64,000 nt of DNA from Xiphydria camelus (Eukaryota; Arthropoda; Insecta; Hymenoptera; Xiphydriidae): contig OY783198.1 of the NCBI GenBank assembly GCA_963678675.1, positions 13,092,580 to 13,156,579 of the forward strand. The letters are read 5' to 3'. A program made the translations under genes and the position numbers. Below, piece after piece: positions 6,622 through 58,386 of the stretch. The notes under the pieces are model-generated. The model saw nothing but the letters and a program-made list of their open reading frames with translations. It had not been told where the DNA came from and made no database searches. Positions within the stretch are counted from its first letter, which is position 1. Every line of letters begins with the position of its first letter.

Positions 6622-6772
6622 TTGGGCCAGTCCTGGAGGTACTGCAATACCAGGCCAACCCGCGGCAAGGCCGGAGCGAGCTCCCGTCACCTCACCCACC
6701 TCCAAAAATCAGTTTAATATACTGGATTCCCAATGGGAATCGTATCAGATATTAAGCTGATAAGAACAGATA
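6622..6772 (-). ncRNA. U2: U2 snRNA, 5'-truncated (nt ~37 to 3' end), gap between units 1 and 2
   Basis: On the minus strand the segment opens TATCTGTTCTTATCAGC, passes through the stem IIa sequence (AATATCTGATACG) and a IIb-like hairpin (ATTCCCATTGGGAAT), then CTGATTTTTGG (Sm site), the stem III loop GGAGCTCGCTCC and stem-loop IV (GGTATTGCAGTACC), ending GGCCCAA as in insect U2. Known U2 has GUAGUA, the branch-point pairing sequence, at about nt 33-38; the copy starts inside it. Nucleotides 1-36 and a promoter are missing, so this copy cannot act as U2 by itself. All eight copies are 151 nt and look identical. Confidence 0.95.
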
Positions 6773-6815
6773 AACGCCATTTATTGAAAATATACATTCA
6801 CAATAAAGATGTGTT

Positions 6816-6844
6816 CCCCCGGAGGAGCAATGCTCCCCCGGGGG
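6816..6844 (-). other. Terminal 3' UTR hairpin, about 45 nt from the target junction
   Basis: A 7-bp stem (CCCCCGG/CCGGGGG), one mismatch, a 5-bp stem GGAGC/GCTCC and a 3-nt loop. Equivalents: 14210-14238, 21604-21632, 28936-28964, 36279-36307, 43665-43693, 51087-51115 and 58436-58464. In unit 8 (51087-51115) the A-C mismatch becomes a G-C pair. The inner stem is weakened in units 6-9. It is a good candidate for the reverse transcriptase recognition element. Confidence 0.65.
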
Positions 6845-6950
6845 TAAAATAAATGGCGCAGGCGCCACGCAAAACAAATACAAAACAAAAGAACTATCGA
6901 TATGAATACAAATATAAGGGGGGCGGCTAATACCCACCCCCCACTATTGG

Positions 6951-6998
6951 GGGCCCGTCGTTTTAAAAGAATATCGATTTATTTGTGCTGACGGGCCC
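6951..6998 (-). other. Conserved 9-bp stem in the 3' UTR (GGGCCCGTC/GACGGGCCC)
   Basis: Perfect arms around a 30-nt AT-rich loop. In units 8 and 9 the inner pair T-A becomes C-G in both arms at once (51239-51284, 58573-58622), and other positions change to wobble-compatible bases (units 6, 8 and 9). Compensatory change in otherwise diverging sequence supports a selected RNA stem. Other copies: 14345-14392, 21739-21786, 29073-29120, 36416-36463, 43802-43849. Confidence 0.7.
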
Positions 6999-7101
6999 TT
7001 ACAATATTATATCAATAATCCCCCGCCGCTTCTTACAGCAGACAGGGGATGTGACGCCATATCTGCGGACAAACACAGGACGACACCAACAGAAATCCAG
7101 C

Positions 7102-7170
7102 GGCACCCCGTGACCAGCCATGCCCCGACCCATCTTTCAATGGATCGAGGCCGGCCGGCCCAGGGGTACC
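7102..7170 (-). other. Conserved 69-nt structured core of the 3' UTR
   Basis: Outer stem GGCACCCC/GGGGTACC (one wobble) closes an inner stem (GCCCCGA/TCGAGGC) and a small hairpin, next to a GGCCGGCCGGCC palindrome. The core is exactly 69 nt in all eight 3' UTRs: 14496-14564, 21890-21958, 29229-29297, 36567-36635, 43953-44021, 51383-51451 and 58728-58796. In unit 9 the outer wobble becomes a Watson-Crick pair (GGTACCC/GGGTACC) and the inner stem becomes GACCTC/GAGGTC. It is the best-kept part of the 3' UTR and a likely RT-binding or 3'-end element. Confidence 0.7.
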
Positions 7171-7705
7171 AGCTCCACCGCACAGCAGGGACACACAGGA
7201 CATCACATGGACAACACAGGACATAGCACAGTGCAGTGGGCAACACATATCTTAAAACAGAACCAGGTAAGTAAAATAAAAACAGATCATAGATAGACGA
7301 TAAGTTAATAATAATTATAATATAAAGAAAAAGTATCGTCTATATTAATAAATACGTTAAGTAAAATAAAAGATGACTATAATTATATATACTAATTTCG
7401 AGGAGGGATAGGGCGGCTACGCAGATGTCTCCTCCTACTCAGGTAGGTACATCTCATAAATTAATAAATAAATAAATAGTTACGTAGATTAAGTTAATTT
7501 AAGCTAATATATGTTAGATCGATATATATATATAACAATAACTAGGCAGCCAGCAAAATGACGAATGACGATGGATGATGTGAGCTTGATGAATGGAAAT
7601 ATGTACAATAATCGAAAGTGATGGGATGAGCATGAGAAATTAAAAGAGAGCGCTGCTACCTAATTGAGCCAACCCTTCCCAGGACCAAGGCAGGAGGGAA
7701 AATAC

Positions 7706-10700
7706 CTATGCATCATTATCGGTTTCGGTTACTAGCGGTGCATACTGCCTAGCGCCGGTGAGATGTTCCACGTATATATCGCGGGACCATCGGATCGTGT
7801 CCGAGACAATGAGTCGGCGCATCATCGACGCATACCACGAAGATATTCGTAGCCATCTCAACACTTTCTCATTGCCCCAGTACCACGACCCGAGGGCACC
7901 CACGATAAAGGCGTCAACCACAACTCGGTACCCTTGCGCCTGCAGCTGGTCCGCCAGGGGCGCGTACTTGGCGTATTTCCGCGCTCTGGCCTCATCCCAA
8001 GACTGCAGACGGTTCTCAAAGGGCACCGTCACGTCCAAGATGGTGATGACACGTGACCGGTCGTCCCGGATAACTATATCCGGCCGAAGTTGGGCCAACT
8101 CCCCCACCACCCCTGCCACAGGGCGGTTCGTGGTCACGACGCCAGGCAGTTGCTGTGCTTTAACGATCCGCTCGACAATCGCATCGTGCCGACGCTGAAT
8201 TGCGTTGGAGTGAGGAGTGCAATGTCCGAGCACATGGGGTAGTGTCTCGAGGGCGCTCCCGCACCGCCGGCATCGTTTATCGTTCGCCTCCCAAGGCCTA
8301 GCTCCGTTCAGAGGCAAGACATTGAGACGCGCTCGATGAATGAAGCGCCAGTCAGCAAAACGCGTAAAGCCGCCAGTCCGGAGGAAATGGTTAGACCACC
8401 TCGCCCGTCCCGACACCTCGTGGACCTTACCCTGGTCCCGCTTCGCCAGCAAGGTTCCGCGGTAGTACTCGACCAGTGCAACCCTCATCCGGTGCACTAT
8501 CTGCGAGCGTGCGGCTGGTGGTACGATGGTCGATCGGTCACGAGTCGCCCGCAACACGATCGCCAGCTCCTCACGTTCGTCAGACCACGTCCAACGCACG
8601 CCGAGCTTCGTTGACTGCCTCCGGGCGGCGTCACGTGCCGAGGTCCAGAGGGATTTAACGTCCCCCCCGTGCCTGGCGAAATCCCCCTCCAGCGAACCGG
8701 AAAGGTATTCCGCCACGTCATCCATGCACGGCTCTCGGCCGAGCCGCTTCCTGACCGCCGCCCTCAACCCGCTACTCGCGATTGCTCTCACCACCTCATC
8801 CTCCGCCGTCAGCATTCTGAAGGCGTGTGCGATGGTGAGCGCATCCGCGAGATCAGCTAGCGGAAGTAGCCCTCCTCCCCCCATTGATGGAGGTAGGAAG
8901 ACCACTTCCGCGCTCGCGCGCTGGGGGAGATGGAACCAGCCTTTAGCCAGCCTTTTCAGTTGGCGGTCGACTTCACCGAGCGGCCCCTTCTCCATCCTCA
9001 TTCCCCTTAGGCCGAAGTCCATCCGCGGCAGCACAAACTTGGCTACCGCGTCGAACTTCTGCCAAGGGGCGAGCAACGAGGCATCGATCGCCTTGAGGCA
9101 CTCAACGATGTCAACGAGCGCCTTTATTGGGGTCTGGCTCACGTTGGCACCGGTGGGTGTACCCAGGTGGGGGTATTCGTCGCGGTCCGATAACGCGCGA
9201 ACGGGCTCTCCTTGGAGAGGGAACACAGTCGGCAGCACCCGGCGCCCTCTTCTGCAGTTCATGTGCAGAGTGGCGCATTTGGCCGGGTTAAAGTGCAGGC
9301 CAATCCGCTGTGCTGCCCTCTCCGCTGCGGACAGGAGGAGTCGCATCCCGGCGGGGTCGCTGGCAACCAGCGCAAGGTCGTCCGCATACGCCAGAGTGTT
9401 CAACCTCGTCCCGCGTAAATCGTACCCCGCATCCGAGGATGCAAGGGCACGAAGTACGGGCTCGAGAGCGAGGTTGAACACTATGGGGCTCAACGGGCAA
9501 CCTTGTTTTACACCCGACTGGATGTTCACCTCCGAGGTGTAACCGTCCGCAGTTCTCACCCTCGTCGTGGCCCCTCGGTACATGCTCGCCACCAAACGGC
9601 GGAGAGATGCAGGCACCTGGGCACCCTCTAGCGCGGCTGCAATGGAGACATGGGGGACCGAACCGAAAGCATTTCGGAGGTCCAACCACGCCACCACTAC
9701 CTCCTTTCCAGTCCGACGTGCGTCCTGAATGGCCTCCTGAAGCACGAAGGAATGCTCGTAGCATCCCTCGTACTTCAGGAAGCCCTTCTGTGAAGGACTG
9801 ATGCGGCCGTTGCGCGTCGCCCATTCGGTGAGACGATCGGCCACGACGGCGGCGAACAGCTTGGCGAGAACCGAACCCATCGCGAGCGGGCGCCAATTGC
9901 TCAGATCGTCCTGATCCCCTTTCTTGTACACCAAGACGGTGTTAGAAGTCTTCCAACCCTCAGGGATCGCTTCCAGCCTGCGGCAGGCGTTGTACACCGC
10001 AGTCAGGACACACGCACCGGGGTCGACCCTTCTCAAGTCGCGATAGGTAAGACCGTCGGGTCCAGGCGCAGTATTAGCCGCGTTCTTGAGCCGACGGAGT
10101 ACCTCCAGCTGACTGAAGGGTGACACCAGCGCGTCGTTATCGTCCTGCAACGGGGGCTCAGTCGGCCAGCCCCCGACAAGACCTTCCGGGTCCTCACGCC
10201 GGCGATACACTTCCTCGAAGTGATGAAGGACCCTATCGCGTGGCACAGCACACTGAACGGTAGGGCCCTGCATCACCTCGCGAAATGCACGCCGGGGGTC
10301 TTGTCTGTACAAGCGCTGGATGTGAGTCGCACGACTCACGCGATCCATGGGGGGAGGAAGCGGGGGATCAGGCTGATCCGAGCGATCAGCCACTCGCTCC
10401 GGGTTCATGTCCTCGGCTGCCCGCCTCCGGCGCGGCCGACCGCCCCCACGCCGGGGAGCATTCCGCGCACCGGAGGTGCCAGGCCCAGCAGGAGTCGCAG
10501 CCTGAAAACGCGTGGCAAGTCGCCTCGCCAGCGCTTCCAACTCGTCTATCGACGCGACAGCCTCAGCCGCTTCGATGAGCTCAACGCACTCAGTCTCGCT
10601 AAAAGGAGGCTGAGGCGCAAAGCCATCTGGCAGCGTTGGCTGGGCGTTGACCCTACCAGGCCCGACACCTCCGGTGCCGCGCGGCATGCCCAGTACTCCC

Positions 10701-12973
10701 GCACCAATGCGGGCCGGATCTGGCCGCCTTCGGGTGGCCGAGGCACCCTGTCGAGGGGGTGGGGGAACTAAAGGGGGAGCCCGTCCGGGCGCCCGGGGAC
10801 CATCGACGAAACCACCACCATGATCGTGTAGCAAGGGACTTACCGGACGCTGAAACGGTGCAGTCCGGCCGCGGCGCGATGAATTGAATCCGCGATGCCC
10901 CCCTGCCTCAGTCCTACCTCGAGTGTCGCGCGGTGGCGCGTCGGGTCGGCGCTCCAGGCCAGCTGGGGCCGATGTCGACGCCGCGATGGTCGGCGTCGTC
11001 TGCGTGGCGGTCGTTGCCGTCCTCGCCGTCCTCGTGGCAGCTGCTGATGTTGTTGCTGCTGCCGCTGCTGCTGCTGGTGGTGTTGCTGCTGCAGCTGTCC
11101 GGGGTGAGTCCTCGGTGCGGCCCTCGGGTGTTGATCGGGCCGCTGGTGGTGGTGAGGGCGGTGGCCTCGCAGCCGCCTCCGCCCGGACTCTCCTCCGGAT
11201 CTCCTCTTCTTCGTCGTCCGGGACCTCCCGACTTCCCGCGTGGTACTCGACGACCCCTGCGAGATACTCACGGGTCGCCGAGTATCTTCGTCTTACCGCC
11301 TCCAGTTCTGGTGTGTGCGGTAAGACCTCCACCTCCGGGGGAGCAGGCGTGAGAGGAAAGGAGGTGTTCCGCCAGAACACCTCGTCGTCGCTCGACGACG
11401 ACGACGACGATCCGCTAGATATTATAACGGATCGCCTGGGACGACCAGATCTTAAGACCCTTGGTCGTCCCGCGACGGAGAGGGTGACAGCTCCGTCGCT
11501 GAGGCGTCTGGCGGGGATCTCTCTCACCTCCTCCTCGCTCCCGGCACCCGCATCTGGTGTTACGGCGGGCGCCTCTTCCGGTATCTCCTCCTCTTCCTCC
11601 ACGATCACGTCCTCCATCCTTGGTGGTGTTCGGGGAGGACTTATCCTCCCGGGATGGACGGCCGTAGAACAGATCGGCCCGCCACATACCGAGGTGGTAA
11701 TGGTAGTGGCGGTGATCGTGGCTACCGGACTTGAGGTGGGGATGATAGTCTCACTGGGCGGGGTTGTCGGGGGGTCCAGGAATCCTCCGAGGGCGACGAA
11801 GGGTTGTGCACCCTGTAGCAGCTGTAGGCGCTGGCGGATCTCCTGCCGCTGCTGCTCCAGGGTCGGCACTGTTGATGTCGTAGGCGGTGCCGTTGCTCCC
11901 TCGCTGGCGACGGGGGCGACGACGGGTGTGGGGGGAGTTGCGACGACGTCCGCGAAAGTCGTCCCAGCGGTGACCGGAGGTGATCGCCGGAACTGCTGCC
12001 TCGGACGTTCGGGAGACCGATCCTCAGTAGCCGCTCGCTGTCTCCTGGCTCTACTCCTCGTGACTCTTGGGGACACAGGCGGGGCGCTGGTCGCACGTCC
12101 ACGCCTGGTCGTCACTCCTCGCGTGGTGGTGGTCTGCGAGGGACGGGCGGAAGTCGGCGCAGAGGTGGTCGTTGCACCGCTCCCACTCCGTCGAGGAGGT
12201 GGAGTTGGGCCCCGTCCAGAAGATGTTGATGGACCAGGGCGGGGGGAACTAGATGTCCGCGTTCCCCCGAGCGCGCTCCGCATGGTATCGGCTCCTCGGA
12301 TGTTTGGCCTCTGGGTCGACGCTCTTGATGGACCCCCGCTCGAAGATGTAGATGGCGAGGGTCGAAGGGGGACGGTGACTCCCGTCGCCCCGGCAGTCCG
12401 CACAAGATGTTGGGTGGCTGGAACCTGCCGCGTCGGCCCAAAGGTCAGCGTCATCTGGGTCGCTGCTCCTCCCGTCCTCCTTGTGGTAGCGATGGAGGCT
12501 GCCACGGTGGTGGTCGTCGTGGCCGAGGTCGATGGTGGTGTCCTCGTGGCACCCGTCGTCGTCGCCGTCGCACGTATCGCCGCTCTTACTGTCCTTAAAC
12601 CCGCGCTACCCGAGGTAGTCGCGGGGCGAGAGCTCGCGGGGGCGGAGGTATTTTGGCCGGATGTACTGGCTGTCGATTGGGAGGGAGCTGTCGAACGGGG
12701 ATGCGATCGCTCGAAATGCGCCTTAACGTCTTTAAGGGCATACCTGCCCTTTCCGACGAAGGAGCACTGCGAGCACGCATACTCAATATATAGTCCCGCA
12801 TGAGCCGGCTCATTATTCCTGGCCATAAGGGCCAGGTGCTTAGACAGCTCCGCATTCCCTTTAAAACTCCCCTTGGAGCGGATTAAGCCCGAACCGCCGT
12901 AGCAGACCGGGCATCGAAATACCTCCGGTAGAGGTACCTCGATCCTCAGAGGAACGCGTGGTGGTGTCGCCAT
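7706..12973 (-). CDS. Retrotransposon ORF, unit 2, 1755 aa
   Basis: The translation is identical to unit 1 throughout, as far as I can compare. All catalytic positions are present: zinc-finger ligands, RT motif A Asp, YADD, the CCHC knuckle and the PD...D endonuclease residues. The exact 7394-bp offset and lack of differences, even at third codon positions, imply duplication too recent for substitutions to build up, or an assembly duplication. Confidence 0.95.
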   Translation of the reverse strand: MATPPRVPLRIEVPLPEVFRCPVCYGGSGLIRSKGSFKGNAELSKHLALMARNNEPAHAGLYIEYACSQCSFVGKGRYALKDVKAHFERSHPRSTAPSQSTASTSGQNTSAPASSRPATTSGSAGLRTVRAAIRATATTTGATRTPPSTSATTTTTVAASIATTRRTGGAATQMTLTFGPTRQVPATQHLVRTAGATGVTVPLRPSPSTSSSGGPSRASTQRPNIRGADTMRSALGGTRTSSSPRPGPSTSSGRGPTPPPRRSGSGATTTSAPTSARPSQTTTTRGVTTRRGRATSAPPVSPRVTRSRARRQRAATEDRSPERPRQQFRRSPPVTAGTTFADVVATPPTPVVAPVASEGATAPPTTSTVPTLEQQRQEIRQRLQLLQGAQPFVALGGFLDPPTTPPSETIIPTSSPVATITATTITTSVCGGPICSTAVHPGRISPPRTPPRMEDVIVEEEEEIPEEAPAVTPDAGAGSEEEVREIPARRLSDGAVTLSVAGRPRVLRSGRPRRSVIISSGSSSSSSSDDEVFWRNTSFPLTPAPPEVEVLPHTPELEAVRRRYSATREYLAGVVEYHAGSREVPDDEEEEIRRRVRAEAAARPPPSPPPAARSTPEGRTEDSPRTAAAATPPAAAAAAATTSAAATRTARTATTATQTTPTIAASTSAPAGLERRPDAPPRDTRGRTEAGGHRGFNSSRRGRTAPFQRPVSPLLHDHGGGFVDGPRAPGRAPPLVPPPPRQGASATRRRPDPARIGAGVLGMPRGTGGVGPGRVNAQPTLPDGFAPQPPFSETECVELIEAAEAVASIDELEALARRLATRFQAATPAGPGTSGARNAPRRGGGRPRRRRAAEDMNPERVADRSDQPDPPLPPPMDRVSRATHIQRLYRQDPRRAFREVMQGPTVQCAVPRDRVLHHFEEVYRRREDPEGLVGGWPTEPPLQDDNDALVSPFSQLEVLRRLKNAANTAPGPDGLTYRDLRRVDPGACVLTAVYNACRRLEAIPEGWKTSNTVLVYKKGDQDDLSNWRPLAMGSVLAKLFAAVVADRLTEWATRNGRISPSQKGFLKYEGCYEHSFVLQEAIQDARRTGKEVVVAWLDLRNAFGSVPHVSIAAALEGAQVPASLRRLVASMYRGATTRVRTADGYTSEVNIQSGVKQGCPLSPIVFNLALEPVLRALASSDAGYDLRGTRLNTLAYADDLALVASDPAGMRLLLSAAERAAQRIGLHFNPAKCATLHMNCRRGRRVLPTVFPLQGEPVRALSDRDEYPHLGTPTGANVSQTPIKALVDIVECLKAIDASLLAPWQKFDAVAKFVLPRMDFGLRGMRMEKGPLGEVDRQLKRLAKGWFHLPQRASAEVVFLPPSMGGGGLLPLADLADALTIAHAFRMLTAEDEVVRAIASSGLRAAVRKRLGREPCMDDVAEYLSGSLEGDFARHGGDVKSLWTSARDAARRQSTKLGVRWTWSDEREELAIVLRATRDRSTIVPPAARSQIVHRMRVALVEYYRGTLLAKRDQGKVHEVSGRARWSNHFLRTGGFTRFADWRFIHRARLNVLPLNGARPWEANDKRCRRCGSALETLPHVLGHCTPHSNAIQRRHDAIVERIVKAQQLPGVVTTNRPVAGVVGELAQLRPDIVIRDDRSRVITILDVTVPFENRLQSWDEARARKYAKYAPLADQLQAQGYRVVVDAFIVGALGSWYWGNEKVLRWLRISSWYASMMRRLIVSDTIRWSRDIYVEHLTGARQYAPLVTETDNDA

Positions 12974-14015
12974 CTCGCAGTGGTCGGAGTGCGTTGACTG
13001 GGAACTTAACCGACGGTTAAGTTAAACTAACTAGGAGAGGGTACTCTAGGGGATTCGCCAGGCGGCGTGACAGTTTCCCGCCACAAACCGACTAACTCCT
13101 CGCACTAGAGGGGATAAGGAAGATGGCGGCAACTGACGCGCGGGAGTCACTCCTCAGAGTGGCTCGCACGATGACAGCTGTCACCACCCGTGCAAAGAGG
13201 TTAGGGACTCCGATGGGCACTTAGCCGCGGGGATCGCTCCAAGGAGCGACGCGCGCAGCAGAGCGCCTAAACACCGGGGGAAGTTAGAAAGGATGTCAGG
13301 TAGGGTTAGGTCACCTTACAGCAACCGACACTCGGATGCCTTAGAGCAGAGCTCGCTGGCAGGCGAGTGGGGGCTGATGGAAGGGAACCGGGAAATTTAA
13401 AAGGGTTAAAACCGATTCCTCCCTCGATTACTCCCTCCCGTTACCGGTAAGGAGCTCGATTGAGGAAAGGGAGTTGGACGATAAGGAGGGGGAAAGAACA
13501 CTCTACTTACCTCCGACCACTTAACGTTGGGACGGCGACTGCGTCCTCCGGTAGCGCCTCCAAGGGGGTTATCCGCGAACACTCCGCACTCGCGAACTCT
13601 CTGCGCGGCACACAGAGAGACAGCACAAATAAATTAAACGACACTGCACGCAGTTACCGACACTACACCGCGCGACACTGAACTTAAACTCTAGACACTT
13701 AACACAGAAAAATAAAACTTAGACTAATCGCTTCCCGACCGAGAGCGTAAGACTTTAAAATTCCTCCGGAGAGTGTAAAGGCTCTCAGGAGGAAAGACTA
13801 GAAAATTAAACTAAGTCCAAATATAAAATTCAAACGGGTGTAAAGAGCCCGGAATAATTATAAGTCTAAAAGGTAGTACTGTAAGAATACCGCGACACCG
13901 GTAAAGTCGGTCGCGGCAGGGATAAGGTATGGAAAACTGATTTTTGGTAAAGGTGGATGGCCTTGCCGTTCCTCAAACCTTATTAAAGGGAGGAATATGA
14001 AATTGCAAAGGATAA
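12974..14015 (-). other. Leader / 5' region of unit 2
   Basis: 1042 nt, matching the unit 1 leader. Palindrome at 13003-13023, YY1-like motif at 13120-13130, GTAAAG hairpins at 13761-13794, 13835-13851 and 13890-13916, U2-complementary arm at 13934-13968. No ORF supported. Confidence 0.7.
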
Positions 14016-14166
14016 TTGGGCCAGTCCTGGAGGTACTGCAATACCAGGCCAACCCGCGGCAAGGCCGGAGCGAGCTCCCGTCACCTCACCCACCTCCAAA
14101 AATCAGTTTAATATACTGGATTCCCAATGGGAATCGTATCAGATATTAAGCTGATAAGAACAGATA
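14016..14166 (-). ncRNA. U2: U2 snRNA, 5'-truncated, gap between units 2 and 3
   Basis: Same 151-nt U2 segment from nt ~37 to the 3' end, with Sm site and stem-loops III and IV. The unit 3 3' end joins it with the tail GTT after AATAAATGGC. Confidence 0.95.
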
Positions 14167-21409: not shown

Positions 21410-21560
21410 TTGGGCCAGTCCTGGAGGTACTGCAATACCAGGCCAACCCGCGGCAAGGCCGGAGCGAGCTCCCGTCACCTCACCCACCTCCAAAAATCAG
21501 TTTAATATACTGGATTCCCAATGGGAATCGTATCAGATATTAAGCTGATAAGAACAGATA
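21410..21560 (-). ncRNA. U2: U2 snRNA, 5'-truncated, gap between units 3 and 4
   Basis: Identical 151-nt U2 3' segment. The junction tail of unit 4 is GTT, the same as for units 2 and 3. Confidence 0.95.
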
Positions 21561-28739: not shown

Positions 28740-28890
28740 TTGGGCCAGTCCTGGAGGTACTGCAATACCAGGCCAACCCGCGGCAAGGCCGGAGCGAGCT
28801 CCCGTCACCTCACCCACCTCCAAAAATCAGTTTAATATACTGGATTCCCAATGGGAATCGTATCAGATATTAAGCTGATAAGAACAGATA
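28740..28890 (-). ncRNA. U2: U2 snRNA, 5'-truncated, gap between units 4 and 5
   Basis: Same 151-nt U2 segment. The adjoining 3' end of unit 5 has one more T than units 2-4 (tail GTTT), marking a separate junction. Confidence 0.95.
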
Positions 28891-36080: not shown

Positions 36081-36231
36081 TTGGGCCAGTCCTGGAGGTA
36101 CTGCAATACCAGGCCAACCCGCGGCAAGGCCGGAGCGAGCTCCCGTCACCTCACCCACCTCCAAAAATCAGTTTAATATACTGGATTCCCAATGGGAATC
36201 GTATCAGATATTAAGCTGATAAGAACAGATA
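36081..36231 (-). ncRNA. U2: U2 snRNA, 5'-truncated, gap between units 5 and 6
   Basis: Same invariant 151-nt U2 segment; junction tail of unit 6 is GTTT. The U2 copy is unchanged although the adjacent ~20 nt of leader differ from other units. Confidence 0.95.
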
Positions 36232-43459: not shown

Positions 43460-43610
43460 TTGGGCCAGTCCTGGAGGTACTGCAATACCAGGCCAACCCG
43501 CGGCAAGGCCGGAGCGAGCTCCCGTCACCTCACCCACCTCCAAAAATCAGTTTAATATACTGGATTCCCAATGGGAATCGTATCAGATATTAAGCTGATA
43601 AGAACAGATA
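43460..43610 (-). ncRNA. U2: U2 snRNA, 5'-truncated, gap between units 6 and 7
   Basis: Same 151-nt U2 segment; junction tail of unit 7 is GTTTT, the longest T tail in the window. Confidence 0.95.
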
Positions 43611-50887: not shown

Positions 50888-51038
50888 TTGGGCCAGTCCT
50901 GGAGGTACTGCAATACCAGGCCAACCCGCGGCAAGGCCGGAGCGAGCTCCCGTCACCTCACCCACCTCCAAAAATCAGTTTAATATACTGGATTCCCAAT
51001 GGGAATCGTATCAGATATTAAGCTGATAAGAACAGATA
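50888..51038 (-). ncRNA. U2: U2 snRNA, 5'-truncated, gap between units 7 and 8
   Basis: Same 151-nt U2 segment. The junction differs in kind: unit 8 ends GGCTCG directly before TATCTG, not GGCGTT(T). Confidence 0.95.
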
Positions 51039-58235: not shown

Positions 58236-58386
58236 TTGGGCCAGTCCTGGAGGTACTGCAATACCAGGCCAACCCGCGGCAAGGCCGGAGCGAGCTCCCG
58301 TCACCTCACCCACCTCCAAAAATCAGTTTAATATACTGGATTCCCAATGGGAATCGTATCAGATATTAAGCTGATAAGAACAGATA
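58236..58386 (-). ncRNA. U2: U2 snRNA, 5'-truncated, gap between units 8 and 9
   Basis: Same 151-nt U2 segment; unit 9 ends GGCTCG before it, as unit 8 does at its own junction. The most upstream U2 copy in the window (sense orientation) and still truncated at nt ~37. Confidence 0.95.

Follow-up and report, generated by a model that had tools for sequence, protein, structure and literature searches.

What places the 3′ part of a U2 snRNA gene, time after time, in front of the same retrotransposon, and what becomes of the gene that is hit? The question is raised by a window of 64,000 nucleotides from Xiphydria camelus (C22:13092580-13156579, in a genome of 357 Mb in 38 contigs). A single element, always on the minus strand, accounts for nine reading frames and eight junctions in the window (Table 1), and at each of the eight the order is the same: 3′ UTR, U2 nt 39–187, leader. 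The U2 part is 149 nt long and identical in sequence at all eight; U2 halves that lie beyond the window differ, in several cases, by single changes. Set against this invariant part, the frames of the window units lie at synonymous distances (dS) of up to 0.149, with a dN/dS of 0.09–0.21 for 20 of 21 frame pairs (it is undefined for the other), and in between-unit comparison the 3′ UTR is the most variable part of the unit. Counted from the upstream end, units 1 and 2 have their first 1.8 kb in common and differ later, and units 5 and 6 have most of the body and the 3′ UTR in common and differ in the first 2 kb.

Table 1. Features of the window; on the minus strand, each U2 part starts at the higher of its two positions
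Feature	Positions	Strand	Remarks
U2 snRNA 3′ part nt 39–187, junction 8	6624..6772	-	Rfam U2 match; 149 nt identical 8/8
U2 snRNA 3′ part nt 39–187, junction 7	14018..14166	-	Rfam U2 match; 149 nt identical 8/8
U2 snRNA 3′ part, junction 6	21412..21560	-	Rfam U2 match
U2 snRNA 3′ part, junction 5	28742..28890	-	Rfam U2 match
U2 snRNA 3′ part, junction 4	36083..36231	-	Rfam U2 match
U2 snRNA 3′ part, junction 3	43462..43610	-	Rfam U2 match
U2 snRNA 3′ part, junction 2	50890..51038	-	Rfam U2 match
U2 snRNA 3′ part, junction 1	58238..58386	-	Rfam U2 match
Variable patch, 12–21 nt past U2 3′ end, between two conserved stretches	13997..14006	-	106 matches; 14 versions in the 100 listed
Leader stretch complementary to U2 Sm-site/stem III region	13937..13967	-	112 genome copies at ≤2 mismatches
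Leader (5′ UTR) of unit with frame 7706..13021	13022..14017	-	
Stop-free frame, 1771 aa	7706..13021	-	N-terminal zinc-finger-like region, reverse transcriptase, C-terminal CCHC, restriction-like endonuclease motif
3′ UTR	6773..7705	-	ends AATAAATGGC + 3–5 varying letters before U2 nt 39
Frame, next unit downstream, 1771 aa	312..5627	-	
Frame, unit upstream, 1771 aa	15100..20415	-	
Frame, 1751 aa	22494..27749	-	
Frame, 1770 aa	29772..35084	-	
Frame, 1769 aa	37150..42459	-	
Frame, 1770 aa	44577..49889	-	
Frame, 1771 aa	51922..57237	-	
Frame, 1550 aa	59346..63998	-	cut by window end

The 5′ half of U2 is missing from the window: a 36-nt U2 start taken from general U2 sequence finds no match in it at up to 12 mismatches, and GATCAAAGTGTAG, from the host's own U2, occurs 23 times in the genome and 0 times in the window. 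The original prediction starts from junctions that lack the U2 5′ part and contain the 3′ part, and all eight are of this kind. It placed the break at 36/37; the actual site is 38/39, since the host U2 5′ part is 38 nt long. No HDV-type or other known ribozyme was found in Rfam, either across the window at gathering score or at one junction at E values up to 5.

The protein of the element contains an RVT_1 domain (Pfam, E 5.6e-28), and solved R2 proteins align with it across the reverse transcriptase and the C-terminus. Two sets of residues, which we take to be a CCHC motif and a restriction-like endonuclease (P-D...D...E...K), are invariant in all six aligned sequences, those of the element and five homologues. 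The N-terminal Cys/His pattern is visible in the consensus, with no Pfam finger above cut-off. Judged from sequence, the units would be full-length Utopia-like retrotransposons aimed at U2 nt 38/39, for their protein features and site fit that family. Utopia is described by Kojima & Jurka (2015, PMC4640811) as an RLE-type element in U2, with downstream U2 from nt 39 and one to three N-terminal zinc fingers; here, too, the target is this U2 site with downstream U2 from nt 39, and a reverse transcriptase is joined to a C-terminal zinc finger and a restriction-like endonuclease. The best named homologues are hymenopteran, ~55–62% identical, and include one from Camponotus floridanus, a species on the Utopia list of the accessible text of PMC4640811. 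The Pfam results for the protein include no Myb domain, and absence of the R2-type Myb domain marks Utopia in the portion of PMC13188248 available. Nor do they include an AP domain; Keno, which PMC4640811 places at this very U2 site, has an AP-type endonuclease, whereas the element has the restriction-like motif instead. R2 targets 28S rDNA, not U2. No relatives of the element were found in viral contigs.

Genome-wide, a search with the Rfam U2 model scored 46 places among 20077 candidates, and the best seven of the 46 are complete U2 genes. The leader motif occurs in 112 copies at up to two mismatches. Of the 100 listed, all free of mismatches, 48 lie on C1 (all on the plus strand), 50 on C22 (all on the minus strand) and one each on C6 and C10, so that 98 sit in two one-strand arrays of ~50 units each. 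The outermost upstream members of these arrays, at C1:26059151 (+) and C22:13229556 (−), are complete U2 genes that adjoin leader directly. The original prediction had called for a complete U2 immediately upstream of the outermost 5′ leader, and both arrays have one; a whole U2 ahead of the frontmost copy suggests that the element gives back the gene it enters. The DNA upstream of the two fronts, a putative promoter, is similar by eye over several hundred bases. Because of this likeness the two loci may be paralogous, and the two fronts, together with the patch order that the arrays share (below), are perhaps not independent. A lone U2 3′ half had been expected at the far end. It is found clean on C29 (below), but on C22 the half sampled ends at nt 138 against unrelated DNA, with another leader farther out.

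Two U2 copies, L017 and L027, look decayed, one being altered beside the Sm site and the other in the region that pairs with the branch site. A tandem satellite that contains the U2 5′ end, in steps of ~285 bp, gives 3977 matches at up to three mismatches (none in a reversed control); among the first 100 listed, these lie at C1:28.68-28.70 Mb, C22:11.92-11.98 Mb and C6:13.63 Mb.

Copies outside the arrays, and a few inside, tell where element RNA begins. Nine were read in which U2 5′ sequence lies outside a U2 gene's own start—at unrelated sites, in the arrays and on C29—and eight of them start at U2 nt 1 (the ninth begins ATTCGC). The preceding base is G in seven of the nine, two of which are neighbours that share one junction; it is A at C6:21.49 Mb and C at C6:9.66 Mb. 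The seven complete U2 genes, like the start of the C29 gene, have C or T in this place, and for that reason the extra G looks like a copy of the cap. All nine thus start at U2 nt 1 or within a base of it, which shows that transcription of some element RNAs set out from there, presumably under the U2 promoter.

The main form, type I, in which U2 39–187 precedes the leader, has two dispersed copies. At C6:21485441 the order is unrelated DNA, U2 1–36, 24 nt of the Utopia 3′ end, U2 39–187, leader and body; at C10:15128367 it is unrelated DNA, ~400 nt of 3′ UTR, U2 39–187, leader and body. Most simply, U2 39–187 came in with the RNA at both places. Lying outside U2 genes, these copies show that the U2 3′ part can travel with the element, and with the starts at U2 nt 1 they bear out a further claim, that RNA carrying U2 sequence is made from the U2 promoter.

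The best explanation of the whole, and one that we consider moderately probable, is that U2 39–187 borne on the RNA rebuilds U2 in type I insertions, and that a second form, type II, spares the gene by duplication. The template for type I copies would be an RNA begun at the U2 promoter and running through U2 1–187, the U2 3′ flank and the body. U2 1–38 on this RNA would let the new DNA strand anneal to U2 1–38 of the target, as proposed for R2 with upstream 28S sequence; the insertion would rebuild a complete U2 in front and leave the old U2 3′ half behind, and the rebuilt site would be open to further hits, so that copies would stack. In U2-sparing type II copies, a target duplication of ~165–182 bp would cover the rest of the gene. 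For type I at U2 genes themselves we infer that U2 39–187 came with the RNA, as no copy has been caught whose target and source U2 differ.

The RNA appears to carry more than U2. Seven other U2 loci have a 3′ flank similar to the first ~350–450 nt of the leader: the five dispersed complete genes, a decayed copy on C6, and C29 at its downstream end. All seven alignments score above the best of 20 shuffles each. The alignments start at ~+2 to +8 in five loci and at +75 and +140 in the others, and end at +343–450 in six loci and at +662 in one. Since these flanks align, and since tblastn (E 1e-10) finds no Utopia frame downstream of any of the five dispersed genes over the ~18 kb fetched at each, the 5′ end of the element looks, by its sequence, like U2 39–187 plus U2 3′ flank. 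The original prediction went as far as the U2 3′ half; the flank seems to be carried as well. The flanks might instead be remnants of old insertions, the leader being the element's own and not captured from U2. This reading is compatible with any other considered here, and it would account for a leader-like flank at seven of the seven loci and for a piece of Utopia 3′ UTR 2.8 kb downstream of U2 at C21:18.08 Mb. We find it possible but less likely, given the missing frames downstream of the five dispersed genes and a C29 flank that comes after the last U2 half, where native DNA is expected. A piece similar to the leader stretch complementary to the Sm-site region is also present in several U2 3′ flanks. 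One junction folded as a single strand gives a z of −6.85; pairing between U2 and leader, folded as two strands at nine loci, is weak (z −0.4 to −3.3).

Restoration is not universal, and type II copies reveal as much. In these, which lack U2 39–187, U2 1–38 is joined directly to a shortened leader, from about unit position 318; there are eight, with a ninth variant at C10:19001237. On C29 the order is U2 gene start, U2 1–38, type II copy #1, U2 39–187 plus 16 nt, type II copy #2, and U2 39–187 plus the same 16 nt and flank; the DNA upstream resembles, by eye, that of another U2 gene. Copy #1 is joined precisely at U2 38 and breaks the U2 gene. Copy #2 starts at U2 nt 1 and is flanked by a perfect 165-bp duplication. 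A type II copy on C22 has 182 identical bp on both sides; on C1 there is, by reading, a 167-nt duplication with a single mismatch, and another pair with at least 249 nt in common (up to the end of the piece fetched). The claim that the element carries the U2 3′ half and restores the gene is partly supported, as a probable account of type I; it fails for C29 #1, and type II copies that spare the gene do so by long duplication. A U2 5′ half joined straight to leader, named beforehand as evidence against restoration, does occur on C29 in a modified form, U2 nt 38 to the shortened leader. We suppose that type II joined at U2 38 kills its U2 gene and would be purged, and that type I leaves U2 whole, which would explain why the arrays hold ~100 type I units and four of type II. 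At L030 (C1:26073.9 kb), a piece of the element's own RT region lies between the U2 half and a type II copy, as if by template jump; over the stretch fetched, the adjacent unit has the same piece.

That this same element does make long target duplications (165 bp on C29, 182 bp on C22, and on C6, below) counts against the RNA-borne explanation, and opens another: that all its forms spare U2 by long target-site duplication, U2 39–187 being copied from the target. We regard this as possible, and the less probable account. In its favour, besides the duplications around the C29, C22 and C1 copies, is an off-target site on C6 where the same flank follows each of two copies, whose frames are 7% apart over 1960 nt and whose 3′ UTRs are 19% apart; of the 568 nt that separate the copies, at least 524 align with the 564 nt fetched after the second one (91% with gaps counted, a difference of ~2% by substitutions alone), a repeat that long target duplication suits better than plain segment duplication. 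U2 1–38, moreover, is in none of the interior type I junctions read, and there is a precedent in R9 of rotifers, reportedly an R2-like element with a long target duplication (126 bp), the target being rDNA there and U2 here. The second-strand cut would fall just beyond U2, at a distance from the first cut of 149 nt and between a few and ~30 nt more, and type I RNA would start just after U2, at the U2 precursor cut-off, for example, and contain no U2. This processed-RNA form draws on human U2 RNA, which, in what is accessible of PMC9138887, is cut just upstream of the 3′ box only if made from the PSE promoter. Against duplication stand the two dispersed type I copies, with U2 39–187 inside the copied RNA, and a solo copy on C20, where six 20-mers of the 3′ flank are absent from the 1.5 kb upstream and no duplication was found in that interval. 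The available text of PMC4640811 infers deletion on insertion and gives no duplications for arthropod Utopia, although it leaves a duplicated U2 fragment possible.

The variable patch bears on the same choice. If a duplication reached past +12, a new unit should have its neighbour's patch. Both the patch and a leader marker could be read in 82 of 101 units. Where adjacent units differ in leader marker, 16 of 27 pairs (0.59) have the same +12 base and 5 have the same whole patch; among the 1109 non-adjacent pairs that differ in marker, 549 (0.50) and 117 do. At +12 there is no clear sign that a unit inherits from its neighbour; the strict form of such inheritance, expected under long duplication, failed the test, and the idea that the patch is a seam between target and RNA was dropped along with that rule. 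The patch differs in 22 of the 27 adjacent different-marker pairs versus 4 of 24 adjacent same-marker pairs, so that from one neighbour to the next the two tend to change jointly; across all units the association of patch with marker is weak (P 0.025 at +12 and 0.008 for the letters that follow). The neighbour test and the two dispersed copies lean toward RNA-borne U2, joined by annealing of U2 1–38. The U2 half of the main form could possibly come, instead, from a duplication that ends before +12. Three adjacent pairs with different bodies have 284, 392 and 953 nt of identical 5′ sequence, and 300 nt or more in common was seen in 1 of 158 non-adjacent pairs; the long identities may reflect local copying or gene conversion.

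That unequal crossing over or gene conversion enlarged the arrays after a few insertions, restoration being a by-product, is improbable despite the near identity of window units 6–8 (4 differences in 7394 between 6 and 7), the mosaic units 1/2 and 5/6 and the clustering of adjacent patches, for bodies are only 93.0–97.6% alike in seven of the ten adjacent pairs compared, 3′ ends vary between units, frames have diverged under constraint, and crossing over makes neither a first unit of intact U2 plus leader nor copies that start at U2 nt 1.

Of 12 complete units read at array positions 0.00–0.82, 11 have an open frame, the exception being the C22 front unit, which has a large internal gap; both complete units read at 0.98–1.00 have a broken one. 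Patch versions follow a similar order from front to far end on C1 and C22: with 53 + 49 units (three unlisted ones dropped and three front units added), the mean position difference between like versions is 0.242, versus 0.324 ± 0.024 in shuffles (P 0.002), and of 49 rotations only the unrotated order matches as well. Open frames at the front and the shared order fit growth of the arrays from the front; common descent of the two arrays would also give the shared order.

Among known systems, the integrases of phages and ICEs restore tRNA genes in that the element carries the 3′ end of the gene and displaces the old end. The carried 3′ end is the likeness; the difference is that theirs is bacterial DNA recombination, not reverse transcription. 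R2, as far as the accessible part of PMC3774820 goes, is transcribed with host RNA; annealing of the upstream target sequence borne on that RNA is the proposed reason for its uniform 5′ joins, and in the earwig its 5′ end includes 28S sequence that normally lies downstream of the site. Gene rebuilding is not described for R2 in that part, whereas the stretch carried here would complete U2. For Utopia itself, the available portion of PMC4640811 records occasional tandem insertion in Nasonia, and, in Phytophthora, Utopia copies that lack the U2 5′ fragment and have intact U2 genes upstream. Arrays of ~50 units headed by U2, U2 sequence in element RNA, and duplications of 165–182 bp set the present copies apart from what is published there. 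Among the papers listed by the literature searches, which cover few subscription journals, nothing on gene-restoring snRNA retrotransposons was recognised beyond those cited; the family is already known, and the gene-sparing mode is, apparently, new.

Taken as far as it will go, the picture is one on which we are evenly divided. A retrotransposon would have captured the 3′ four-fifths of its target gene, and the gene's 3′ flank, and would use the gene's promoter and rebuild an expressible U2 with itself attached. Each hit would be harmless and would recreate the target, so that one locus could hold dozens of copies layered by age, and mutants without the U2 piece would destroy the gene, except where a long target duplication rescues it. 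The accessible part of PMC4640811 finds it surprising that several Utopia lineages are kept up in a target with few copies, and invokes population genetics. If true, target restoration would remove this paradox of Utopia upkeep, as the gene would outlive each hit and its site would be there again for further copies to stack. The system is also a natural case for testing whether the 5′ end comes from RNA or from target DNA.
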